This document shows positions 1,392-35,147 of a DNA stretch of 64,000 bases, one piece after another. The notes under the pieces were generated by a model, which saw only the letters and a list, made by a program, of their open reading frames with translations, had not been told where the DNA came from and did no database searches. A program made the translations under genes and the position numbers. The stretch's first letter is position 1, and each line of letters begins with the position of its first letter. This DNA is from Pseudomonas sp. LRP2-20 (GTDB lineage Bacteria > Pseudomonadota > Gammaproteobacteria > Pseudomonadales > Pseudomonadaceae), in NCBI RefSeq assembly GCF_024349685.1, contig NZ_AP025944.1, positions 3,292,001-3,356,000 on the forward strand, given 5' to 3'.

Positions 1392-3992
1392 ATGCCCAGT
1401 CTTGCCCTGTGTACATGGACCCGCACATCGCTCCTGGTCGGCCTGCTGGCTTTGCCGGTGAGCAGCTGGGCCTCGGAATGGATCGTGCGTGTCGACGAGC
1501 AGAACGGCTTGCCGACATTGACCCACGGGGGTGGCCCGGCCTTCGTATCCAGTTTCGACTTCTGGGGCGCGAACTGGGGCTGGACCGGGTTCTATCCAAC
1601 GCTCAAGGTCGAGGGGCCCTATCGCTACACACTGACTGGCAGCAACAAGGACCTGGACTTCGACCTGAAGGCCGACATCCAGAAGCCCCAGACGCAAACC
1701 CTCACCTGGGACTTCGACCTGCAGGCACACAGCAGGCAGAGCAACGTGATGGGTGGCGGCATCGTCTGGCGCTTCGACCCCTCGTTGATTGCCGGGGAAA
1801 TGGGCGACCCGGTGCTGTTGCCTGATAATCGCGGCTGGGCATGGGGCAAGAACCCCCAAGGGCCACATGTCGAAATGCGCTTCGAGCCACCGCTGGCCAA
1901 GGTCTATTTCGAACGGGGCAACACCGACCAGATACGCACCTTCTTCTACACCGACCCGATCAAGGCCGGGCAACAGCGGATCAAGGCGCAGTTGAGCGTG
2001 ACCGGCGATATCACCCTCGGCCAGACCGCCACTGAACGCTTTGGCATCACCGACCCCACGACATGGCCGGATGACCAGCTCGACTGGCGCACCTCACCGG
2101 TCGACCTGTCGTTCCTCAACGCGCAGGAGAAACCGGCCGGCAAGCGCGGCTTCGTCAAGGCCGATGGCGAGCAGCTGGTGTTCGCCGACGGCACCCCGGT
2201 GCGTTTCTGGGGGACCAACCTGTCGGCCTATTCGCTGTTCCGTACGCCCGACGAGGAAATCACAGCACAGGCCAAGCGCCTGTCGGCCCTGGGCTTCAAC
2301 CTCGTGCGCCTGCACCACCACGACTCCCCCTGGGTAACGCCCAACATTTTCGGTGACCTGCAGAAGATCAAGGACACGCAAACGCTCAGCGCCGAGTCGC
2401 TGAAGAAGATCGACCTGTGGATCAAGAGCCTCAAGGACGAAGGTATCTACGTCTGGCTCGATCTGCATGTGTCGCGGCCCGTCACGGCCGCCGACAACAT
2501 CTACGGTTTCGACGAGCTGCCTAAGGACCATGGTGTCGCCGGCCTCAAGGGCTACCTGTTCGTCAACGTCACCCTGCAGCAGGCGCTGAAGCGCTTTGCC
2601 GAGCAATACCTGACCCACGTGAACAGTTACACCGGGCTCGCCTACAAGGACGACCCGGCGATTGCCGCCGTGCTGATCACCAACGAAAACGACGTCACCC
2701 ACCACTTCGGCAACGCACTGCTGCCCGACAAGGATGTACCGAAACACAGCCGGCTCTACATGGACCAGGCCAAGGCCTTCGCCCAGCGCCACGACTTGCC
2801 GGCGGACAAGACCTGGCGCGCCTGGGAGCACGGCCCCTCGAAGCTGTTTCTCAATGACCTGGAGCATCGCTTCTACGTCGACATGATCGGCTACCTGCGC
2901 AACCTCGGGGTCAAGGTACCAATCGCCACCACCAGCACCTGGGGCCTCAATGGCCTGTCCTCGCTGCCGGCCCTGACCGCCGGTGACGTGGTCGACGCCC
3001 ACAGCTATGGCGGGCTCGGCCAGCTGGAGAAGAACCCGCTGAGCAGCGATGGCATGATCAACTGGCTGGGTGCGGCCCAGGTGCTGGGCAAGCCGATGAC
3101 CGTCACCGAGTGGAACGCCGAGCCCTTCCCCCTGCCCGATCGCCACTCACTGCCGCTGTACGTGGCCGGCACCGCCAGCCACCAGGGTTGGGATGCGATC
3201 ATGCAATACGCCTACAGCCAGCAGGCATTCTTCGAACCGTGGCGCCGGGCCGACAACTGGAATGCCTACAACGACCCGGGGCTGATCGCTACCCTCCCCG
3301 CCGCCGCCCTGCTCTATCGGCGCCAGGACGTGCACCAGGCCAAGACCCGCTACGTGTTCGCGCCCACAGCGGCGACCCTGTTCAACCAGGACATCTCACC
3401 GGCCAACTCGGTGATGCTGCGCACGGCCATGGCGAAGGGCCGGCTGCAGATCGCCATGCCGCAAACCCCAGAGCTGCCGTGGCTGCAGGCCGGCGCGATA
3501 CCCGCCGATGCGCAGGTGCTGAAAGACCCTGGGCAATCGCTGATCGATGGCGATGCCAGCGAAGCGGTAACCGACACCGGTGAGCTGCGGCACAACTGGC
3601 AGCAGGGCCTCTACACCATCGATACGCCCATGACCCAAGCGGCGACCGGCTGGTTGGGCGGCCAGTCGCTCACCGTGGGTGACCTCCAGCTCCAGCTGAA
3701 AACCGCCTATGCCAGCGTCGTGGTGCAGAGCCTGGATGCCAACCCGCTCAAGCAGTCGCGCAACCTGCTCATTTCACTGGGCAGCCGCGCCGTGCCCAGG
3801 CCCGACGATGTAACACCATTCCATGTCGAACCCCTGCAAGGCAGCCTGAGCATCAAGGCACCGGCGGGCCTGAAACTCTATAGCCGCAGTGCCGATGGCA
3901 AAGAAAATCCCCTGCCTGCGAGCTACAAGGATGGGCGCTACCTGATCACCTTCGATGGCCAGCACATGGCCAATTGGCTGTTCTTGAAATAG
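1392..3992 (+). CDS. secreted clan GH-A (cellulase-like) glycoside hydrolase
   Basis: 866 residues with an N-terminal signal peptide ending near SSWAS. The middle (about 250-620) reads as a TIM-barrel glycosidase: FWGTNLSAYS at the barrel entry, an ITNEND segment carrying the candidate acid/base Glu after Asn, and VTEWNAEPF with the candidate nucleophile Glu. The flanking regions look like beta-sandwich domains. The ATG lies 8 nt behind a GAGG Shine-Dalgarno and 4 bp after the membrane protein, so they are co-transcribed. A periplasmic or secreted hydrolase next to EPS genes usually trims or releases the locus's own polymer. The substrate is not predictable from sequence; cellulase-like is only a fold statement. 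Confidence 0.75.
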   Translation: MPSLALCTWTRTSLLVGLLALPVSSWASEWIVRVDEQNGLPTLTHGGGPAFVSSFDFWGANWGWTGFYPTLKVEGPYRYTLTGSNKDLDFDLKADIQKPQTQTLTWDFDLQAHSRQSNVMGGGIVWRFDPSLIAGEMGDPVLLPDNRGWAWGKNPQGPHVEMRFEPPLAKVYFERGNTDQIRTFFYTDPIKAGQQRIKAQLSVTGDITLGQTATERFGITDPTTWPDDQLDWRTSPVDLSFLNAQEKPAGKRGFVKADGEQLVFADGTPVRFWGTNLSAYSLFRTPDEEITAQAKRLSALGFNLVRLHHHDSPWVTPNIFGDLQKIKDTQTLSAESLKKIDLWIKSLKDEGIYVWLDLHVSRPVTAADNIYGFDELPKDHGVAGLKGYLFVNVTLQQALKRFAEQYLTHVNSYTGLAYKDDPAIAAVLITNENDVTHHFGNALLPDKDVPKHSRLYMDQAKAFAQRHDLPADKTWRAWEHGPSKLFLNDLEHRFYVDMIGYLRNLGVKVPIATTSTWGLNGLSSLPALTAGDVVDAHSYGGLGQLEKNPLSSDGMINWLGAAQVLGKPMTVTEWNAEPFPLPDRHSLPLYVAGTASHQGWDAIMQYAYSQQAFFEPWRRADNWNAYNDPGLIATLPAAALLYRRQDVHQAKTRYVFAPTAATLFNQDISPANSVMLRTAMAKGRLQIAMPQTPELPWLQAGAIPADAQVLKDPGQSLIDGDASEAVTDTGELRHNWQQGLYTIDTPMTQAATGWLGGQSLTVGDLQLQLKTAYASVVVQSLDANPLKQSRNLLISLGSRAVPRPDDVTPFHVEPLQGSLSIKAPAGLKLYSRSADGKENPLPASYKDGRYLITFDGQHMANWLFLK

Positions 3993-24899: not shown

Positions 24900-25008
24900 G
24901 TTCAGCTCCCAGATGAATCGGCCTACAAAGCTACAAGATGGAGGCTCGAATAAAAAGGTTGTTCTGAACAGGTGCTCGTCTTGGATTTTGCGGTGCTGCG
25001 CAAATCGC

Positions 25009-25227
25009 GCGCCGCCCGCGCGGCGCATCGCGAGCTTTGCTCGCTCCTACGCTTGTTTCGGGCCAATCAGTCCTGGGCGATTTGCGCGCGAACGCCTTGG
25101 CGCATGGCGCGATATCCGGTCTTACAAACCAGGCGGTCGCGCGCGCCTGTCACAGGCTTTACTGGCCCGAAACAAGCGTAGGAGCGAGCAAAGCTCGCGA
25201 TGCGCCGCGCGGGCGGCGCTCGATCTC
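25009..25227. repeat. long inverted-repeat element with 57-bp perfect arms
   Basis: Arms 25009-25065 and 25163-25219 are perfect reverse complements (57 of 57). Each starts GCGCCGCCCGCG and ends CGGGCCA. The 97-bp core contains short dyads (gcgatatc, gcgcgcgc). The same element, in inverted orientation, recurs at 63111 and is there cut by an IS. It has no coding capacity and looks like a MITE-like or extended REP-type mobile repeat. It fills much of the 462-bp gap upstream of wecB and could form a strong cruciform or RNA hairpin. Confidence 0.8.
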
Positions 25228-25361
25228 ACAGGCTCTGAACTTGTCACGCCGAACACCTGTCACCCATTGGACAACCGTGCATGCGACTGCTTGTATCTAT
25301 CACTTACAAGCGGCGACATGACCTACCACTTCGTCCAGGGAATTGTACGAGGAACAAGACG

Positions 25362-26516
25362 ATGGCGAATTCCGTCATGATGGTTTTCGGTACCCGCCCC
25401 GAAGCGATCAAGATGGCCCCGCTGGCCCGCGTGCTGCGCGAGTGGCCCGAGGTCGACTTGCATATCTGCTCCACCGGGCAGCACCGCGAAATGCTCGAAC
25501 AGGTACTCACCGCCTTTGGCCTGAGCGTCGATCAGGACCTCAAGGTGATGACCCAGAACCAGACGTTGAACGGCCTGGCCCGCGACCTGCTGGGCAAGCT
25601 CGACCAGGCCTATGAGCAGGTCAAGCCCGATATCGTGCTGGTCCATGGCGACACCACCACCAGCTTCATCGCCAGCCTCGCGGCCTTCCACCGGCACATC
25701 CCCATCGGCCATGTCGAAGCCGGCCTGCGCACCGGCAACCTGCAGCAACCCTGGCCTGAAGAAGCCAACCGGCGCCTGACCGGGGTGATCGCCAACCTCC
25801 ATTTCGCCCCCACCACCAAGGCCCGCGACAACCTGCTGCGCGAAGGCGTGCCACTGGAGCAGATCGAGGTCACCGGCAACACGGTCATCGACGCACTGCT
25901 ATGGATGCGCGAACACCTCACACAATCCGCATGGCACCCCGCCGCCGATTCACCGCTGCACACGCTGCGAACCGACCAGCGCATGGTGCTGGTCACCGGC
26001 CATCGTCGGGAGAACTTCGGCGCAGGCTTCGAGCGTATCTGCCTGGCCCTGGCCGAACTGGCCCTGCGCTACCCCGACGTGCAGTTCGTCTACCCGGTGC
26101 ACCTCAACCCGCAGGTGCAGAAGGCGGTCTATGGCCTGCTGTCCGGGCGCGGCAACATTCACCTGGTGGCGCCCCAGGACTACCAGCATTTCGTCTGGCT
26201 GATGAACCGCGCCCACATCATTCTCACCGACTCCGGTGGCGTCCAGGAAGAAGCCCCGGCGCTGGGCAAACCGGTGCTGGTGCTGCGCAAGGTCACCGAA
26301 CGCCCATCGGTACTGGAGGGCGGCACGGTGAAACTGGTGGGCACGAACACCGAACGTATCGTCCGGGAAACCGGCCAGTTGCTCGACGACCCTGAGGCGT
26401 ATCAGCGCATGGCAAGGATCTTCACCCCATTCGGTGACGGGCATGCCAGCGAAATCATCGCCGAACGCCTGAGCCGATGGCTCGAGGAAACCGCCGCCAA
26501 GCGAGACGACGCATGA
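25362..26516 (+). CDS. wecB: UDP-N-acetylglucosamine 2-epimerase (non-hydrolysing)
   Basis: 384 residues. Opens with VFGTRPEAIKMAPL, the family signature, and keeps VHGDTTTS, IGHVEAGLRTGN, TGHRRENFG and LTDSGGVQEEAPALG. It interconverts UDP-GlcNAc and UDP-ManNAc in the cytoplasm. The ATG at 25362 follows AGGA with 9-nt spacing. Its TGA overlaps the nfrB ATG (ATGA), so the two are translationally coupled. In E. coli WecB is NfrC, needed with NfrA and NfrB for the phage N4 receptor glycan; here the gene is part of the nfr operon itself rather than an ECA cluster, which implies a ManNAc-type polymer. Confidence 0.95.
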   Translation: MANSVMMVFGTRPEAIKMAPLARVLREWPEVDLHICSTGQHREMLEQVLTAFGLSVDQDLKVMTQNQTLNGLARDLLGKLDQAYEQVKPDIVLVHGDTTTSFIASLAAFHRHIPIGHVEAGLRTGNLQQPWPEEANRRLTGVIANLHFAPTTKARDNLLREGVPLEQIEVTGNTVIDALLWMREHLTQSAWHPAADSPLHTLRTDQRMVLVTGHRRENFGAGFERICLALAELALRYPDVQFVYPVHLNPQVQKAVYGLLSGRGNIHLVAPQDYQHFVWLMNRAHIILTDSGGVQEEAPALGKPVLVLRKVTERPSVLEGGTVKLVGTNTERIVRETGQLLDDPEAYQRMARIFTPFGDGHASEIIAERLSRWLEETAAKRDDA

Positions 26517-28687
26517 GCCTGGCCTTCATCGACTTCCTCACCTATGTGCTGTTCGGCCTGAAGATTCTGGCAATCATCCTCGCCTCGCTGATGTTCCTGC
26601 TCGGCCTCGACGACCTGTTCATCGACCTGTGCTACTGGAGCCGCAAGCTGATCCGCCGTTTTCGCATCTACGACAAGCACGAAAAGGCCGACGAGAAACG
26701 CCTGTTCGAAGTAGCGGAAAAGCCCTTGGCAATCATGGTTCCGGCCTGGAACGAGGTGGGGGTGGTCGGCGAGATGGCGCGCCTGGCGGCCTCGACCATC
26801 GACTACGAGAACTACCAGATTTTCGTCGGCACCTACCCCAACGACCCACAGACCCAGGCCGACGTCGACGCCGTGTGCCTGCATTACCCGAACGTGCACA
26901 AGGTGGTCTGCGCGCGCCCAGGCCCGACCAGCAAGGCTGACTGCCTGAACAACATCATCGATGCCATCCTGCGCTTTCAGGACGATGCCCGCATCGAGTT
27001 CGCCGGTTTCATCCTGCATGATGCCGAAGACGTGATCTCGCCCATGGAACTGCGCCTGTTCAACTACCTGTTGCCGAGCAAGGACATGATCCAGATCCCG
27101 GTGTACCCCTATGCACCGGAATGGAAGGGTTTCACCGCCGGGCACTACGTTGACGAGTTCGCCGAGAACCACGGCAAGGACGTGATCGTGCGCGAGGCGC
27201 TGACCGGCCAGGTGCCCAGTGCCGGTGTCGGCACCTGCTTCAGCCGCCGCGCCATCAGCGCCCTGCTCGAAGACGGCGATGGCATCGCCTTCGACGTGCA
27301 GAGCCTCACCGAAGATTACGACATCGGCTTTCGCCTGAAGCAGAAAGGCATGAAGTGCATCTTCGCCCGCTACTCCATCACCGACCCGGCGCTGGCCCTC
27401 AAGCACGAGTGGGTACCGGGCATGAGCCGCGAGTTCGCCCAGGTGATCTGCGTGCGCGAGCACTTCCCGCGCGACTGGCAGCATGCCATCCGGCAGAAGT
27501 CACGGTGGATCGTCGGCATCGTCTTCCAGGGCACCAGCAACCTCGGCTGGAGCCGCACCGGCGCGCTCAACTACTTCCTCTGGCGCGACCGCCGGGGCCT
27601 GTTCGCCTACCTGCTGAGCTTCCTGGTCAACCTGTTGCTGCTGGTGCTGCTGGCCATGTGGCTGGTGACCGTGATCGCCCCGGACTCGTGGCGCTTCATG
27701 TCGATCCTCAGCGACAGCCAGCTGCTCACCACCCTGCTCTGGCTCAACGGCCTGATGCTGATCAACCGCCTGTTCCAGCGCGGCTGGTTCGTCACCCGCT
27801 ACTACGGCATCTTCGAAGGCCTGCTGTCGGCGCCCCGGATGATGTGGAGCAACTTCGTCAACTTCTTCGCCAACCTGCGCGCCCTGCGCCAGGTCATGGA
27901 GATGGGCGATTCGCGGCGGGTGGCGTGGGACAAGACCACCCACGAATTCCCTGCCCTCGCCTCGCCGGCGCGCACACCGCTGGGCCATCGCCTGGTGGAA
28001 AAGGGCTACATCACCGAGGAGCAGTTGGAGCAGGCAATCACCAGCCCGGTGCGCCGGCGCCTGGGCCGCGAATTGCTGCTGCGGGGCTGGCTGAACAGCG
28101 AGCAGCTTGTACAAACGCTGGCCGAGCAGCTTGACCTGCCTTGGGCACCGCTGAACCCGTTCAAGCTCGATCCGCACCTGATCGCCCAGCTGCCGCGCCG
28201 GCTGGCCACGCACTACGGCGTGCTGCCGGTCGCCGAAGACGGCAATACCCTGATCCTGGCCAGCGAAAGCCCGGTCAGCCAGGTGTCGCTGGGGGTCATC
28301 AGTCGCCAGCTGAAACGCCCGGTCAGCTGCCGCCTGGCGCCCCAGGGCCGGGTCACGCTGGGCCTGCGCTACCACTACCCGAGCCCCTGGCAGACGCCCG
28401 AAACCCACGACATGCTCGCCGTGCTGGAGCGGCATCAGGACGATGCCGACCTGCTCGAGCGGGTGAGTCAGCACCAGGTGATGCTCGGCGCCCTGCTGCA
28501 GGTACGCGGCATGGTCCCGGTCACCCTGTTCAACCAGGCACTGATCGATTTCGACCCCGAGCAGCAGAGCCTCGGCGAGCACCTGATCGCCCGCGGCATC
28601 ATTACCGAGGAAGTGCTGCAGCAGGCCCTCGCCGAACAGGCCAGCGAACAGCAGGCTGCCTTTGACCTGACCCGGGAGGTGGCATGA
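26513..28687 (+). CDS. nfrB: NfrB: inner-membrane GT2 with c-di-GMP-binding MshEN module
   Basis: 724 residues. An N-terminal membrane helix (about 8-35) is followed by a family-2 glycosyltransferase domain: AIMVPAWNEVGVV, a YPNDPQT segment, an acidic HDAEDVISP metal motif and RQKSRWIVG at the QxxRW position. Further helices lie around 365-425. From about 480 the C-terminus is a MshEN-like module: RRLGRELLLRGWLNSEQL continued by LxxxLxxQ spacing matches the c-di-GMP-binding consensus, and a related SLGEHLIARGIITEEVL repeat lies near the end. So polymer synthesis is probably switched on by c-di-GMP. It overlaps wecB and nfrA by 4 bp each. Confidence 0.92.
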   Translation: MSLAFIDFLTYVLFGLKILAIILASLMFLLGLDDLFIDLCYWSRKLIRRFRIYDKHEKADEKRLFEVAEKPLAIMVPAWNEVGVVGEMARLAASTIDYENYQIFVGTYPNDPQTQADVDAVCLHYPNVHKVVCARPGPTSKADCLNNIIDAILRFQDDARIEFAGFILHDAEDVISPMELRLFNYLLPSKDMIQIPVYPYAPEWKGFTAGHYVDEFAENHGKDVIVREALTGQVPSAGVGTCFSRRAISALLEDGDGIAFDVQSLTEDYDIGFRLKQKGMKCIFARYSITDPALALKHEWVPGMSREFAQVICVREHFPRDWQHAIRQKSRWIVGIVFQGTSNLGWSRTGALNYFLWRDRRGLFAYLLSFLVNLLLLVLLAMWLVTVIAPDSWRFMSILSDSQLLTTLLWLNGLMLINRLFQRGWFVTRYYGIFEGLLSAPRMMWSNFVNFFANLRALRQVMEMGDSRRVAWDKTTHEFPALASPARTPLGHRLVEKGYITEEQLEQAITSPVRRRLGRELLLRGWLNSEQLVQTLAEQLDLPWAPLNPFKLDPHLIAQLPRRLATHYGVLPVAEDGNTLILASESPVSQVSLGVISRQLKRPVSCRLAPQGRVTLGLRYHYPSPWQTPETHDMLAVLERHQDDADLLERVSQHQVMLGALLQVRGMVPVTLFNQALIDFDPEQQSLGEHLIARGIITEEVLQQALAEQASEQQAAFDLTREVA

Positions 28688-31686
28688 AGCCGCGTCTGTC
28701 CCTCACCCTCTCCGGCCTGTTGCTGTGCTCCACCGCGCTGGCCACCCAGGCAGCGCCGATGACCGACTTCCAACGGTTCACCAGCTACCCGTTCATGGAG
28801 CGCAGCTACCGCGAAGCGAAGAAGGACAACTGGGCCGAAGTCGAACGCTTGACCCGCCACGTCCTCAGCCGCGTGCCAAACAACGACGAAGCCCGCGCGC
28901 TGTTGGTCGAGGCCCTGGCCCACCAGCGCCGCTACAAGGACGCCGAAGCCATGGCCGAGCAGCTGGGCAATGGCCCCGAGTACGCCAACGCCCTGCAGGA
29001 GCTGCGCCTGACCTGGATCGAGCAGGACCCGCCGCCAGCCAGCCAGGTGGAAGGTTGGCTGGCCAGTGCCGACGGTACCCAGCGGGTACGCCTGTGGCAG
29101 GCCTACAGCCTGAGCCTGGCCAAGTTCGGCGGCGCCGGCAGAGCCCTGGAATGGCTGAACCAGCTGCCGCCGCGTGACGATGGCCAGGTGTTGCGCCTGG
29201 CCCGGGCCAACTTCGCCGAGCAGCTGCGCAACTGGAAGGAAACCATCGAGCAACTCCAGCCGCTGGCTGACAAGCGCCAACTGCCGCCAGAAGACTGGCA
29301 GCGCCTGGCCAATGCCTATGTCCAGCAAGTCGACGAAAAGGGCCTGGAAAAGCTGCTGCAAAGCGCGCCCTCCCCTGAAGTGGCCAACCAGGCACGCCTG
29401 GCCATGGCCAATCGGGCCATCGCCGTCGGCCACAACCAACTGGCGCAGCGTTGGTTGCAGAAATTGCCCACCGAGCAGTTGCAGCAACCGGAACAACGCC
29501 AGCAGTTGTGGGAGCTGGCCCGTGAGGGTGATGACGCGCCGCTGGTACGGCGCCTTAGCAACGCGCTGCAGCGCCCTTGCCTGGAGACCGTCGATTGGTT
29601 GTCGCGCCGTGACCCGGATGTCGCCCGCGAACAGTTCAAGGACTGCCCCGCAAGCGCCGACCCGCGCGCATATGCGGTGCTCAAGCAACGCCTGTATGGC
29701 GACCCGGTGCAGCCGCCGCAACCGCGCACCGCCGCCGAATGGGAACGACGCTACCGCCAGAGCGGCGACCTGGCAGCGTTGGAGCAAGCGACATTCCTCA
29801 TGCTGCAACAAGGCCAGAGCGAGCACGCCCGCCCATTGCTGGAGCACGCCTTCGACCGTCGCCAAGGGCACCTGCCCCCCTCGCTGCTGCAGCGCCTGGG
29901 CAATATATACGCACGCAACGATGGCCCCCTGAACAGCCAGCGCATGCTCGGGCTGATCCCCAGGGTCGACGCCAATACCCGCGCCCAGTTGCTCGGCCGC
30001 CTGGCTGAAAACGGCCAGTGCGACGCCGTGCGCCGGGCCATCCCGGCGAACCCGACCGAAGCCGGCCAGTACCGCGCTCTGGGCCGCTGCGCCATGCCCG
30101 ATCAACCGGGTGAAGCGGTGGTCTATTACCAGGCCGCCGAACGCCTGGGTGACAGTGGCAACCGCCTGCCCCTGGCCTACGCGCTGGAAGCCGCTGGCGA
30201 CTCCGAAGCCGCCCAGCCGATCTGGCGCAACCTGCCGGCCAGCGCCTGGAACGACAACGCCCGCCTGACCGCCGCACGCGGGGCCTTGAATACCGGCGAT
30301 GCCGACGCCGCCCGCCGCTACTGGGACGCCGCCGCACACAACAGCGCCGATGACTGGGCACTGGGTGCCGCCATCGCCCAACGCCAGGGCGACCTCCAAG
30401 CGGCGCTGGGCTTCCAGCGCCAAGCCTTGGCGCACAATCCGCGTGCCGACCACTACTATGCCGCTGCCAGCACAGCGCAGCTGGCTGGCGACAGCGCGCA
30501 GAGCACCGCCTGGCTGGCCGAAGCCGTGCGCCTGGCGCCCAACCAGCCGCGCTATCGTGCCGACTACGGCATGCGCCTGGCCGGCTCGCAGGACAAAGCC
30601 CAGCGCCGCCAGTCGATCCCTTACCTGGAACGTGCCACCCACGATTTCCCCGAGGACTATCGCCTGGGCGAGACCCTCGCCCTGCGCTACGACGAAGCCG
30701 AGAACAGTGCCGCCGCACGCCGCGAACTGCGCCGGGTGATCGACGTAGAGGAAAACCTGGTCGATGGCGACGACGAATACGGCAGCCTCGAAGCCCGCAA
30801 GTACCGCCAGCGCCGTGCCCACGAAACCCTGTCACGGCGCGACACCATCACCCTGGCCAGCACCTGGTCACCCGCCGGCACCTCGACCAACGACAAGTTC
30901 CTCGATAACGGCCAGCGCAGTGGCACCTCGCGTCGGGCGCAATCGCAGAACGTGCAGCTGGCCATGTGGGACCACGCCCTGGGTGAGGAACCCAGCCGCA
31001 ATGGCAGTACCCTGTCGGTCTACGGCCGGGTCCTGTTCGGCGGCCAGAGCCGCACCGATTATGCGCAAAGCATGGGTACCGGTGTCGGCCTGCGCTACAA
31101 GCCGCTCGGCCAGGCCAACCTCAACCTGTACGCCGAGCTGTACCACCAACGGCAGATCGACGACGATCATTACAGCGGCCTGAGCCTTGGCGAACTGCTG
31201 AGCCCGGCCAAGGTCGGCGGCAACTGGGGCGACTTGCGCCACCATGCCGAATCGAGCAACGACCTGTTGCTGCGCGCCACTGCCTCGTTCCTCGACCAGG
31301 GTGACTGGCGCAACGACTGGCGGGTCGACGAGGACGACTGGAACGAGCGTTTCCTCTACCTCGATGCCGCCTGGTGGACACGCGCCGGCGACCACGCCTG
31401 GCTGTCGCGCTACCAGCAAGGCCATGCCTGGAAACTGCCCGGCAACTCGCCGCAGACCCTCATGCCTTACGGCTTCTTCGAGTTCTCCAGCCAGGACCCG
31501 AGCAACGACTGGCGCCAGGACGCCCGTGCCGGTGTCGGTGTGCGCTGGCAGTGGTGGTTCGACGACGACCGCTACAACGCCTACCGCGGCTCGCTGAAAG
31601 TGCGCGCCGAATACCAGCAGTCGCTGGGTGGCAACCTCTACAAGAGCGCCAATGGCGTACTGGTTGGCGCGGAGATGACCTTCTGA
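28684..31686 (+). CDS. nfrA: NfrA: outer-membrane N4-receptor-like export porin
   Basis: 1000 residues. Signal peptide (to about TQAAP), a long TPR-like alpha-helical periplasmic region (about 30-680: repeated AEAMAEQLGN, LRLARANFAEQL-type helices), and a C-terminal domain of amphipathic strands ending WWFDDDRYNAYRGSL...GAEMTF, typical of an outer-membrane barrel with a terminal aromatic. This is the PgaA/BcsC-like layout of NfrA, the exporter and phage N4 receptor in E. coli. Start overlaps nfrB stop (ATGA); its TGA shares one base with the next ATG. Probably the outer-membrane exit of the NfrB polymer. Confidence 0.88.
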   Translation: MKPRLSLTLSGLLLCSTALATQAAPMTDFQRFTSYPFMERSYREAKKDNWAEVERLTRHVLSRVPNNDEARALLVEALAHQRRYKDAEAMAEQLGNGPEYANALQELRLTWIEQDPPPASQVEGWLASADGTQRVRLWQAYSLSLAKFGGAGRALEWLNQLPPRDDGQVLRLARANFAEQLRNWKETIEQLQPLADKRQLPPEDWQRLANAYVQQVDEKGLEKLLQSAPSPEVANQARLAMANRAIAVGHNQLAQRWLQKLPTEQLQQPEQRQQLWELAREGDDAPLVRRLSNALQRPCLETVDWLSRRDPDVAREQFKDCPASADPRAYAVLKQRLYGDPVQPPQPRTAAEWERRYRQSGDLAALEQATFLMLQQGQSEHARPLLEHAFDRRQGHLPPSLLQRLGNIYARNDGPLNSQRMLGLIPRVDANTRAQLLGRLAENGQCDAVRRAIPANPTEAGQYRALGRCAMPDQPGEAVVYYQAAERLGDSGNRLPLAYALEAAGDSEAAQPIWRNLPASAWNDNARLTAARGALNTGDADAARRYWDAAAHNSADDWALGAAIAQRQGDLQAALGFQRQALAHNPRADHYYAAASTAQLAGDSAQSTAWLAEAVRLAPNQPRYRADYGMRLAGSQDKAQRRQSIPYLERATHDFPEDYRLGETLALRYDEAENSAAARRELRRVIDVEENLVDGDDEYGSLEARKYRQRRAHETLSRRDTITLASTWSPAGTSTNDKFLDNGQRSGTSRRAQSQNVQLAMWDHALGEEPSRNGSTLSVYGRVLFGGQSRTDYAQSMGTGVGLRYKPLGQANLNLYAELYHQRQIDDDHYSGLSLGELLSPAKVGGNWGDLRHHAESSNDLLLRATASFLDQGDWRNDWRVDEDDWNERFLYLDAAWWTRAGDHAWLSRYQQGHAWKLPGNSPQTLMPYGFFEFSSQDPSNDWRQDARAGVGVRWQWWFDDDRYNAYRGSLKVRAEYQQSLGGNLYKSANGVLVGAEMTF

Positions 31687-32525
31687 TGCGTACGCTCCTG
31701 GCAATCTGCATGCTCGCCCTGTGCCTGCCGGCCATGGCTGACCAGCGCCTGTTCTACCAGCCACTCAACCGCGATGCCACGGTGACCCCGGCGCAGTGGC
31801 AGCAGCTGTGGCGCGCCACCAGGGCGCAAGGGGGCAAGACCCTCATCGTGCAATGGAGCGCCTACGGCAACAGTGATTTCGGTGGTGCCCAGGGCTGGCT
31901 GGCCAACAGCCTGCGCGAAGCCCGCGCACAAGGGCTGGAGCTGGTGCTCGGGCTGTACATGGACCCGGCCTATTACCAGCGCATCGAGGAACTCGACGGT
32001 GACGGCCTGAACAATTACTGGAAGTCGCAACTGGGTCGTTCGCTCGGCCAGTATCAACAGCTTCGCAGGGACTGGCAGTTGCCCGTCAGCGGTTGGTACT
32101 TGCCCATGGAACTGGACGACCTGCACTTTCGCGATACCGCTCGCCGCGAAGCGCTGTACAGCCAGCTGCAGGCCTTCAACCGAAGGCTGGACAAGCCATT
32201 GCACATCAGCGCGTTCAGCGCGGGCAAACTGGCACCGCGCGTCAATGGCGCCTGGCTGGATCAGCTGGCCGGGTTGGGTTTGACTGTGTGGTGGCAGGAC
32301 GGCGCCGGGACCGGGCGGTTGCCGCCGCTGGTGCGCCAGCGCTACGAGCAGGCGCTGCCGTGCCGGGTGGGTGTGGTGCGCGAGGCGTTCCGCCAGGTGA
32401 GTGCGCCGGGGCAGGCATTTCGGGCTGAGCCAGCGGAGCCGATGCTGAATGCGGGGTGCCATGCCGAAGCAGTGTTTGCGCTGCGCTACCGGCCTTGGTC
32501 CCGGGGTGTTCTGCCACAGAATTGA
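31686..32525 (+). CDS. secreted DUF4434-type glycosidase-like protein
   Basis: 279 residues with a signal peptide (MRTLLAICMLALCLPAMA). The rest reads as a TIM-barrel-like glycoside hydrolase relative: RLFYQPLNRD, LIVQWSAYGNSDFGG, LVLGLYMDPAYYQ and GWYLPMELDDLHF with a candidate catalytic Glu, then HISAFSAGK and VWWQDGAGTG. DUF4434 proteins (E. coli YbcH, next to nfrAB) share this layout as I recall. It is translationally coupled to nfrA, so it probably trims or releases the exported glycan in the periplasm. A hydrolytic activity is inferred, not shown. Confidence 0.7.
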   Translation: MRTLLAICMLALCLPAMADQRLFYQPLNRDATVTPAQWQQLWRATRAQGGKTLIVQWSAYGNSDFGGAQGWLANSLREARAQGLELVLGLYMDPAYYQRIEELDGDGLNNYWKSQLGRSLGQYQQLRRDWQLPVSGWYLPMELDDLHFRDTARREALYSQLQAFNRRLDKPLHISAFSAGKLAPRVNGAWLDQLAGLGLTVWWQDGAGTGRLPPLVRQRYEQALPCRVGVVREAFRQVSAPGQAFRAEPAEPMLNAGCHAEAVFALRYRPWSRGVLPQN

Positions 32526-32530
32526 GTCAA

Positions 32531-32639
32531 CCTGCACCGGCCCTTTCGCGGGCAAGCCCGCTCCCACAGTGATTGCACAGATTTCAAGAACTGTGGCGAT
32601 CCTGTGGGAGCGGGCTTGCCCGCGAAAGCGCCGGTGCAG
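32531..32639. repeat. REP pair (inverted)
   Basis: Two facing REP units, ctgcaccggccctttcgcgg and ccgcgaaagcgccggtgcag at the outer ends, each with gcttgcccgc/gcgggcaagc cores. It separates the nfr operon from the diguanylate cyclase gene and may end or weaken read-through. Confidence 0.9.
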
Positions 32640-32665
32640 ACGAAGCAGTACTCACAGGAGCCACG

Positions 32666-33745
32666 ATGTTCAAGACCATTGAAGAACACGTACGCAAGCA
32701 GGTCGCCCCCGCCGCCCTGCGTGCCGAGTTTCGCCAGCATGAATTCGAAGCCATGCGCCCGTTCTGCATGCTGGTGTTCTGCGTCAGCATCCTGATCTGG
32801 CTGGTGTTCGACCTGATCGTCAGCTTCCTCGGCGGCCAGGGTTTCACCTGGCTGTCCTACCTGTTCATCACCCTGCTCGGCTGCCTCACGGTGATCCTGC
32901 GCTTCACCCGCAGCAGCCACCATTTCGACGTGCTCAACCTGCTGTTCATCAGCGCCATCACCTTGGGCATGCGCCTGGTCATCGAAGGTATTCCCGAGCC
33001 TCTGCGCCCCGTGTGGCTGGTGCTCGGCGTGTCGACCGTGCTCTATGCCGTTTCGGTTCTGCCCGTGCGGCGCTGGTCGTTCTTCTGCGCCCTGACCATT
33101 ACCTGGGTGATGCTCAACCCTTTCTACCACACCCGGATCGAAGCCGATGAACTCGAAGGCGCCATGCTGATCAGCTACGCGCTATTCCTCAGCGGCCTGG
33201 TGACCTACAGCTACCTGCAGATACGCCAGGCCAAGCTGCACAACTTCTACCTGTCCAAAGTGTTGCTGGAGCAGGCCTACATCGATGCCCTGACCGACAT
33301 CCCCAACCGCCGCGCGTTCATGGCCAAGGCTGAACGCCAGCTGCACCTGGCAAAGCCTGGCCAGTACCTGGCGATGATCGACATCGACAACTTCAAACGG
33401 GTCAATGATTGCTTTGGGCATGATGTCGGCGACGAGGTACTCAAGCGCGTGGCCATGCATATTCGCGCCAGCATGAACGGTTTCGAGTATGCCCGGCTGG
33501 GCGGCGAGGAGTTCGCGATTCTGTTCGACGGCCTGGACGAGCAGCGCGCCATGCAGCAGGTTGGCGGCTTGTGCAGCAGGGTGCGCGAAGACAATGCCGA
33601 TCACCCGGTGACCATCAGTATCGGCCTGGCCCAGGTCAACCGTGGCGATTCCTTGACAGCAGCGCTGGTCCGGGCGGACCAGGCGCTGTATGCGGCCAAG
33701 CACAGTGGCAAGGACCGGTTCGTGCTGTGGCAACCGGCCCCATGA
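32666..33745 (+). CDS. membrane diguanylate cyclase (GGEEF)
   Basis: 359 residues. Five or six hydrophobic helices fill about 30-180 (MASE-like integral sensor), followed by a GGDEF domain with DALTDIPNRRAF at its start, MIDIDNFKRVND, and the active-site GGEEF at about 278-282. The I-site position before the motif lacks RxxD, so no product inhibition is expected. The ATG at 32666 has AGGAG 6 nt upstream. It follows the nfr operon on the same strand, separated only by a REP pair, and so is the natural source of c-di-GMP for the MshEN module of NfrB; in E. coli the equivalent input comes from unlinked cyclases such as DgcJ. Confidence 0.88.
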   Translation: MFKTIEEHVRKQVAPAALRAEFRQHEFEAMRPFCMLVFCVSILIWLVFDLIVSFLGGQGFTWLSYLFITLLGCLTVILRFTRSSHHFDVLNLLFISAITLGMRLVIEGIPEPLRPVWLVLGVSTVLYAVSVLPVRRWSFFCALTITWVMLNPFYHTRIEADELEGAMLISYALFLSGLVTYSYLQIRQAKLHNFYLSKVLLEQAYIDALTDIPNRRAFMAKAERQLHLAKPGQYLAMIDIDNFKRVNDCFGHDVGDEVLKRVAMHIRASMNGFEYARLGGEEFAILFDGLDEQRAMQQVGGLCSRVREDNADHPVTISIGLAQVNRGDSLTAALVRADQALYAAKHSGKDRFVLWQPAP

Positions 33746-33777: not shown

Positions 33778-35022
33778 TTAGACGAAGTAGCAGACCAGAT
33801 ACGACTTACCCACGCGGCGATCGGTGTTGGCGGTACCGCCCAGGATCAGACGTTGTGGGTCCGGGGCCAACGCACAACGCGCCACGTCGGCACCCGCCTC
33901 GATATTGGTGCGTTTGAGGCCGCCGTCACCGAAGGTCGGATCGAGCAAGCCGTTGGCCTGGAACCGCCCTACGAGGAATTCGGTTTCCCTGGCGCTGTAG
34001 GGAATGCCCGTCAAGCCGGCAGCCACGCTACCGCCTTCGCGCCCCGGCTGACAGTGCACCCAGCGCGCGCCCGAGGCGACCGGGGCCAGATGCACCTCGC
34101 CACCATTGAAGGTTGGGTCGAGCCGGCCATCGGCGGTCACGTGCCCCTGTACAGCTGCGTAGGGCAATCGATCGGTCGAGCCGCTGACGATCAAGCCACC
34201 GTCTCCACGTTCGATTACGTCATAAAACTCGATGCCTATCCTGTTCTTGCCTCGCGGGGCCGTTACCCGAAGGATCCCGCCTGTACCAAAAGCAGGATCA
34301 AGCATGTCGTCGAGGCCCATGCGCAACAGCACGCCTTCACCGTCTGTGGCACCCCAGGCGACGATTCGACCATCAGCCAGCTCGGTGACACCTTCCATCC
34401 AGACGTTAGGCTCATCGCATAGCGGTAATTGCCACACGCCACCCTCATGGAAACAACCGTCCAGGTTGCCACATGCCGTGACACGCACCAGCAAGCCACA
34501 ACTTTGTGCCTGCTCATCGAATCGTGTTATAGCGATCAACAGTTTGCCGTTTCGCTGCTGGATAAGGCCATACGGTTCGTCATATTCGCTCAGTCCCTTC
34601 AGTTCGAGCCTGACAATGCCGCCTTTACCAAAACAAGTGTCCAGGGAACCATCATGCTTGAAACGCGCCAGGAGCGGATATCTCACGGCCCTTGAGCGGT
34701 CCTCGGCCAGTACGATGAAACCATCCTCTGCAGAGGCAATCACCTCCACTGGTACCGCGCTTACCCCCGCGCCAAAGGCAGCCATGACAAAGCCACCGTC
34801 ACCGAAGCTGGCATCCGGCTGTCCTTCAGCCGTCAGGCCCGCCAGCCCAACATAAGGCTGACCGGCATCCCGGTACTGGGCCAGCGCGATAAGCCTGGAT
34901 TGACTGATTGCCAGCCCATGCACGCCACTCTCCACACCACCAGGAAATACAATTTCCACTTTGCCTTGGTCACCGAACGCTGGGTCAATTTTGCAACTTC
35001 TTACCACGCTGTTATCTAACAT
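33778..35022 (-). CDS. delta-60 repeat protein
   Basis: 414 residues made of tandem beta repeats with the delta-60 hallmark LDPSFGDGG-like segments: KIDPAFGDQGKV, PDASFGDGGFV, LDTCFGKGGIV, LDGCFHEGGV, LDPAFGTGGI, LDPTFNGGEV and LDPTFGDGGL. This folds as a beta-propeller or solenoid. No signal peptide is evident from the ATG at 35022, which is preferred because the repeats begin right after it; longer in-frame starts exist. Function unknown; relatives are often surface or secreted. The upstream DNA is AT-rich compared with its neighbours. Convergent with the cyclase gene (32-bp gap). Confidence 0.75.
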   Translation of the reverse strand: MLDNSVVRSCKIDPAFGDQGKVEIVFPGGVESGVHGLAISQSRLIALAQYRDAGQPYVGLAGLTAEGQPDASFGDGGFVMAAFGAGVSAVPVEVIASAEDGFIVLAEDRSRAVRYPLLARFKHDGSLDTCFGKGGIVRLELKGLSEYDEPYGLIQQRNGKLLIAITRFDEQAQSCGLLVRVTACGNLDGCFHEGGVWQLPLCDEPNVWMEGVTELADGRIVAWGATDGEGVLLRMGLDDMLDPAFGTGGILRVTAPRGKNRIGIEFYDVIERGDGGLIVSGSTDRLPYAAVQGHVTADGRLDPTFNGGEVHLAPVASGARWVHCQPGREGGSVAAGLTGIPYSARETEFLVGRFQANGLLDPTFGDGGLKRTNIEAGADVARCALAPDPQRLILGGTANTDRRVGKSYLVCYFV

Positions 35023-35147
35023 CTTGATCTGACTCACATAGAGAACTAGGAGGTGAATTAATTCCATTCGCAGCCCTACATGTCCAGCCCTGAGAAACAT
35101 ACAAAATATTACCGTCCAGCAATTTGGGGGCAATGAAAAAAATCCAA

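Follow-up and report, generated by a model that had tools for sequence, protein, structure and literature searches.

A question raised by the genome of Pseudomonas sp. LRP2-20 is whether five adjacent genes together provide a surface polysaccharide pathway of the type that phage N4 uses as a receptor, from sugar precursor to regulatory signal. The genes lie within 64,000 nucleotides of contig NZ_AP025944.1 (3,292,001 to 3,356,000; hereafter the window, whose numbering is used unless stated otherwise). We conclude that the operon is very likely the Pseudomonas form of the Escherichia coli NfrBA–YbcH exopolysaccharide system (NGR, 'N4 glycan receptor'), and that it can be read as the full pathway. 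Its parts are as follows.

25362..26516, + strand: wecB (nfrC), non-hydrolysing UDP-N-acetylglucosamine (UDP-GlcNAc) 2-epimerase; 384 amino acids (aa); TIGR00236
26513..28687, + strand: nfrB, inner-membrane family-2 processive glycosyltransferase with a predicted C-terminal MshEN domain for cyclic di-GMP (c-di-GMP); 724 aa; NF008411
28684..31686, + strand: nfrA, outer-membrane TPR/beta-barrel exporter; 1000 aa; NF007302, NfrA_C PF13283
31686..32525, + strand: ybcH, DUF4434, predicted periplasmic TIM barrel, probably a glycoside hydrolase; 279 aa; NF007404
32532..32639: pair of repetitive extragenic palindromes (REP) between ybcH and the cyclase gene, from an inverted-repeat search
32666..33745, + strand: membrane diguanylate cyclase, GGEEF, no RxxD inhibitory site; 359 aa; PF00990

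Gene order and protein families

The first four genes overlap by 4 bp (wecB/nfrB), 4 bp (nfrB/nfrA) and 1 bp (nfrA/ybcH), all on the + strand, confirming the chain of 1–4-bp overlaps that an earlier note on this DNA had described. That note had also placed a membrane diguanylate cyclase behind a REP pair, and this is what we find: the two arms (32532–32569 and 32602–32639, 38 nt each) are 97% complementary, and the cyclase open reading frame (ORF) runs from an ATG at 32666 to 33745, 140 bases after ybcH. The host genome is a single contig of 6.03 Mb with one NfrB, the sole other match covering 84 residues at 31% identity. A genome search returned a single WecB match, the operon's own wecB, so the WecB that the pathway calls for is supplied within the locus.

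Four of the proteins exceed the cut-offs of NCBIfam equivalog models: WecB (TIGR00236, 475 bits against a cut-off of 210), NfrB (NF008411, 1262 against 1170), NfrA (NF007302, full-length, 1348 against 1223, with the C-terminal NfrA_C domain PF13283 present) and the DUF4434 protein YbcH (NF007404, 402 against 344). Identities to the E. coli K-12 proteins are 365/721 for NfrB, 219/892 for NfrA, 92/274 for YbcH and 204/373 for WecB. Assignment of NfrB to another synthase family was rejected, as its score with PRK15489 (625 bits) is far below that with NF008411 (1262). The earlier assignment of NfrA and NfrB stands, as does the proposal of an NfrB–NfrA–YbcH system with linked WecB and cyclase.

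Residues important in E. coli are conserved. Mutation of NfrB D169, D267, W330, L490, G491 or G519 is reported to abolish or reduce N4 infection (PMC8669469, PMC8669472), and all six (E. coli numbering) are identical here; of two further positions, L505 is conserved and L509 is replaced by Ile. None of the 80 aligned sequences (the window and 79 of the 80 relatives' loci described below, L075 being omitted from alignment and tree for its broken frame) departs from the DxD, TED and QxxRW motifs of NfrB, which are also identical in K-12, or from either of the two MshEN Leu-Gly pairs. The C-terminal domain matches the solved MshE and PilF domains and has the key Leu-Gly residues. Six residues of WecB were compared with the E. 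coli enzyme and all are identical.

By analogy with experiments in E. coli, WecB would convert UDP-GlcNAc to UDP-N-acetylmannosamine (UDP-ManNAc), and c-di-GMP binding to the MshEN domain would activate NfrB to assemble a ManNAc-containing polymer across the inner membrane. NfrA would then export the polymer through the outer membrane. The remaining two roles are our guess: YbcH, as a predicted periplasmic glycoside hydrolase, might trim the chain or clear stalled chains, and the downstream GGEEF cyclase might be a local source of c-di-GMP, without the usual product-inhibition site and dedicated to NfrB.

Conservation and loss across Pseudomonas

To place the locus among its relatives we used the best 80 of 177 NfrB relatives, 78 of which are titled Pseudomonas and 2 Pantoea. 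NfrB, NfrA and YbcH are encoded in the same order in all 80, and on this conservation chance clustering of the operon genes was rejected. A full wecB adjoins nfrB in 67 loci; it is broken in L033, cut short in L065 and absent from 11. Across 199 Pseudomonas species sampled, NfrB scores over its cut-off in 30 and NfrA matches at E 1e-20 in 31 (30 shared with NfrB); NfrA is over its own cut-off in 18.

Several genomes retain remnants of the operon. Between the window's upstream and downstream neighbours, L102 has the cyclase with the remaining operon gone, and L103 has wecB and the cyclase with nfrBA–ybcH gone. Beside the upstream neighbours only, L104 has a cyclase with one internal stop; in L112, fragments of nfrB remain beside those neighbours, together with ybcH and the C-terminal half of nfrA. 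Such repeated loss would be compatible with phage selection against a costly structure, as suggested in PMC8669472 and PMC12507263.

The end genes differ from the core in their divergence. Compared with the near relative L004, wecB is 87% and the cyclase 84% identical, but nfrB is 98% and nfrA 96%, and wecB is nearer to that of L009 (91%) than to that of L004. These are hints that wecB and the cyclase gene have perhaps been exchanged between lineages.

Deletion of wecB and the sugar building block

The 11 loci without wecB provide a natural comparison. Ten could be placed in the tree, where they form one clade with a support of 0.98 (L075 is outside the tree). In these loci the stretch that normally lies upstream of wecB adjoins nfrB, and in 10 of the 11 the distance from the old start codon to nfrB is exactly 32 bases, read as a mini-ORF of 11 codons with a stop codon that still shares ATGA with the start of nfrB (L012, L013, L017, L019, L023, L028, L029, L032, L037 and L075). 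In L076 the mini-ORF is lost and the leader is followed directly by nfrB. In P. paraglycinae (L065), wecB is reduced to its first codons.

All 12 of these genomes (the 11 with deletions and L065) have another WecB, scoring 518–539 bits and 64–69% identical to E. coli WecB. It lies beside wecC, as in E. coli, in 10 of the 12; in the other two, wecC was not within the 1.5 kb examined. Among 52 genomes with a local wecB (51 of the 67 such loci and the window's own genome), a second WecB above 450 bits is found in 7 and a weaker family member over the cut-off in 17. The difference between the two groups is marked for the strong class (Fisher P = 1.5e-8, with the 450-bit threshold picked after the scores were known) and is retained for any second family member over the cut-off (P = 6e-4). 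This comparison supports UDP-ManNAc as the sugar building block and is consistent with the ManNAc-type precursor suggested earlier.

Diguanylate cyclase

The GGDEF domain of the fifth protein scores 117 bits against a cut-off of 23.8 (PF00990). In an alignment of 66 cyclases (the window and 65 of 67 near-full loci, after a length or stop filter), GGEEF is intact in every one and none has RxxD at the inhibitory-site position. The protein has five hydrophobic segments, and its model (pLDDT 88.5) aligns over nearly its full length with P. aeruginosa PAO1 ImcA (8wcn; E 2.4e-12, TM-score 0.58, root-mean-square deviation 6.7). Orthology with DgcJ was rejected: NF040885 gives 81.9 bits against a cut-off of 500, its best stretch being mainly the GGDEF region.

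A near-full cyclase gene follows ybcH on the same strand in 67 of the 80 loci (67 of 79 assessable, as L020 ends at a contig edge). Remnants are present in L041 and L056, and ten loci have neither a cyclase match nor GG(D/E)EF in the stretch examined. In 20 of the 67 the cyclase gene starts inside ybcH (by 17 bp in 19 loci and by 23 bp in one) and is therefore an operon member in those loci; in the other 47 the gap is 16–354 bases. At E 1e-60 the cyclase is found in 37 of the 199 species, namely 27 of the 30 with NfrB and 10 of the 169 without (Fisher P = 7e-22, uncorrected for kinship). In seven other Pseudomonas genomes (L105–L111), the stretches examined around members of the cyclase family (48–54% identical) contain neither nfr genes nor the window's neighbours. 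Judged from this distribution, the cyclase is an add-on to the nfr operon.

Evidence against the pathway and alternative explanations

Several points weigh against reading the locus as a full ManNAc-polymer pathway with its own signal. A second WecB-family member is common in any case, being present in 24 of the 52 genomes with a local wecB. The losses of wecB amount to two independent events, the 11 complete losses looking like one and L065 being the other, and for this reason the deletion pattern is support rather than proof. A thirteenth locus without a whole wecB, L033 of P. guariconensis, has a broken wecB (at about 2747–3604 of that locus) beside nearly full-length matches to nfrB, nfrA and ybcH, and we found no other full WecB in its draft genome. 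The cyclase may have other targets, since its gene is absent from 8 separate clades of the tree, is preceded by a REP pair in the window and in 10 of the 199 genomes is found without NfrB. Finally, the literature searched showed no experiment on a Pseudomonas nfr locus. The earlier description of the locus as self-contained was accordingly overstated, given that an entire clade lacks the local wecB but carries another WecB, and that the cyclase is lacking or a remnant in 12 of the 79 assessable loci.

Two alternatives concern the sugar and the signal. The polymer could be made of another sugar, for example GlcNAc or a mixed chain, with ManNAc being minor or feeding another envelope product. 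The glycosyltransferase family of NfrB is common to GlcNAc and glucose synthases, and L033 retains nfrBA–ybcH without a whole WecB. The glycan is still called uncharacterised in PMC8669472 and PMC12507263. We nevertheless regard this alternative as improbable in view of the full wecB directly before nfrB in most relatives and the retention of another WecB in all genomes with a deleted or cut local gene, and N4 infection of E. coli is reported to require WecB but not WecA or WecC (PMC8669472, PMC8669469).

The second alternative is that the cyclase is an unrelated neighbour and no source of signal for NfrB. It would fit the REP pair, the scattered losses and the ten genomes with the cyclase alone, in seven of which none of the window's neighbours lies within about 6 kb; the protein, with its five hydrophobic segments, is also no DgcJ equivalog, DgcJ bearing a periplasmic dCache domain (PMC8669472). 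Against it stand the 20 loci in which the gene begins inside ybcH and the strong association with NfrB across species, and we think it rather unlikely. ManNAc as the building block and the cyclase as a signal source for NfrB remain our preferred reading.

YbcH

The model of YbcH is a TIM barrel with invariant Glu142 and Glu233 on strands 4 and 7. Clan GH-A retaining glycoside hydrolases are TIM barrels with catalytic Glu residues on strands 4 and 7. On this structural prediction, YbcH is probably a periplasmic glycoside hydrolase. It could instead be a non-enzymatic periplasmic scaffold: the YbcH profile matched no solved structure by sequence at E 0.1, and the Foldseek list is mixed, with 4h41 followed by many non-hydrolase TIM barrels (for example KDO8P synthases and aldolases). 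Junkermeier and Hengge likewise call E. coli YbcH a putative scaffold, dispensable for N4 and partly needed for the motility effect (PMC8669469). With the glutamate pair on the expected strands we consider a scaffold doubtful, and still favour a hydrolase. The trimming that had been ascribed to a DUF4434 hydrolase in the earlier note nevertheless went beyond a structural prediction for a protein whose E. coli counterpart N4 can do without.

Phages

Candidate phages were sought by searching 50,697 phage records with N4 gp64 and gp65; hosts are given as entered by depositors. Relatives of gp64 occur in 322 records, 22 with Pseudomonas as first name, and relatives of gp65 in 118, of which 13 are Pseudomonas. 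Inbricus (host P. syringae pv. avii) matches both over their full length (71% and 54%, respectively). Two phages recorded from P. taiwanensis (soil, Germany), Lebethron and Halfdan_Juelich_variant, have the gp64-type TIM-barrel domain and are absent from the gp65 matches listed (60 of 118). In Halfdan_Juelich_variant, a Lokivirus, this tail domain is 55% identical to that of the N4 gp64 tailspike, and 6,888 bases of tail genes are 99.0% identical to Halfdan, a phage of E. coli MG1655, and 99.7% to Shy, also an E. coli phage. Three records (MH362766, OR996328 and PP954860) have near-identical Lokivirus tail regions and are recorded from E. coli K-12 and P. taiwanensis. A partial YbcH sequence under the name P. 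taiwanensis shares 86% identity with the window's, and at least one record of the species therefore has part of the operon. In the literature on Lebethron or Halfdan with P. taiwanensis, there was no Lebethron paper among the matches listed (20 of 59) and nothing relevant by title; the main text of the BASEL paper (PMC11990801) contains neither 'Shy' nor 'Halfdan'.

Relatives of the N4-type tail proteins are also found in Campylobacter and Vibrio phages, and a gp64-type domain alone is thus no proof of NGR use. The N4-like Pseudomonas phages that had been proposed for sensitivity tests are too broad a group, as the N4-like P. aeruginosa phage DEV is described as using lipopolysaccharide and LptD; phages with relatives of gp64 or gp65 would be better candidates. 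A tentative possibility, which we rate as unlikely but worth stating, is that the NGR-type glycans of E. coli and the P. putida group are chemically close enough to serve one phage species, and that operon losses in pseudomonads were then driven by phages. A single glycan that allowed a phage to pass from E. coli to Pseudomonas would help to explain very broad phage host ranges, and those who work on phages would have a receptor under the control of host c-di-GMP.

Upstream region and flanking genes

Two features precede the operon:

25004..25224: large inverted repeat, arms 94 nt, 87% complementary
25268..25361, + strand: conserved upstream element, possible promoter and leader, TTGGACAAC ... 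CTGCTTGTATCTAT

The upstream element is conserved across the P. putida-group loci aligned and is also retained before nfrB in the clade without wecB. A consensus scan of the upstream region gave no sigma-70 site; the short conserved element is present nonetheless. The inverted repeat sits between a chlorhexidine-efflux-type gene and wecB. On the other side, a DUF5122 beta-propeller protein is encoded on the − strand at 33778–35133, between the cyclase and a two-component system; just 3 of the 80 loci have a match to its gene, and 34 to the two-component genes. No tRNA gene was found within 15000–45000 of the window.

Comparison with known systems

The closest experimentally studied system is nfrB–nfrA–ybcH of E. 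coli K-12, which has the same three-gene core in the same order, the nfrB/nfrA overlap and the key residues. In E. coli, however, wecB and dgcJ are unlinked, whereas the present locus begins with wecB and ends with a cyclase gene that is not a DgcJ equivalog; NfrA is also only distantly similar (219/892 identical).

The linkage of wecB and a cyclase gene to nfr in pseudomonads has been known since 2021. Junkermeier and Hengge report that organisms with NfrB but without WecB in another pathway all have wecB adjoining nfrB, as in P. soli SJ10, that most pseudomonads have a GGDEF gene with the nfr operon, and the ManNAc reasoning for these loci (PMC8669469). Sellner et al. proposed in the same year, as a postulate, that a ManNAc-based glycan is the receptor of N4 and its relatives (PMC8669472). 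The finding is therefore a correct rediscovery, and recognizing the locus as a published NGR-type system keeps it from being reported as new. As far as they are described, the pseudomonad loci of 2021 have the same linkage and differ in nothing essential; a P. soli locus in our set, from LMG 27941 (L018), has all five genes. Section 11 of PMC8669469 is silent on the scar of the wecB deletion and on the phages listed here; what interest remains is in the deletion pattern and the cross-order phage prediction. The comparisons yield usable predictions: strains with a natural wecB deletion should depend on their second WecB, the two glutamates of YbcH are candidate functional residues, and a few Pseudomonas phages are candidates for NGR dependence.

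Other relatives carry additional genes. Achromobacter is described with NfrB together with NfrA and WecB, and Simplicispira with NfrB inside an nfr cluster, and these clusters add genes for BcsB, an O-acetyltransferase or both. The Pseudomonas version is a second class of locus, L121 (genome G046), which encodes WecB, a BcsB-like protein, an NfrB-like synthase (PRK15489 type, with MshEN), an NfrA_C protein, AlgF, AlgX and a weak DUF4434 match; L123 (G116) encodes WecB, a PRK15489-type synthase, an NfrA_C protein and AlgX. The gene context of this sister type is known from these two loci. NfrB-like matches that are all below the NfrB cut-off occur in 27 of the 199 species, and both kinds occur together in one (G025). 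A related ManNAc-type phage-receptor locus was reported in 2025 from Acinetobacter: in the PGR locus of A. baumannii, the receptor locus of phage StAb3, PgrC is an NfrB homologue, PgrF is a WecB homologue and a ManNAc glycan is proposed. Unlike the Pseudomonas operon, it encodes a homologue of BcsB and a PgaB-like protein, and its cyclase relative has no GGDEF motif (PMC12507263).

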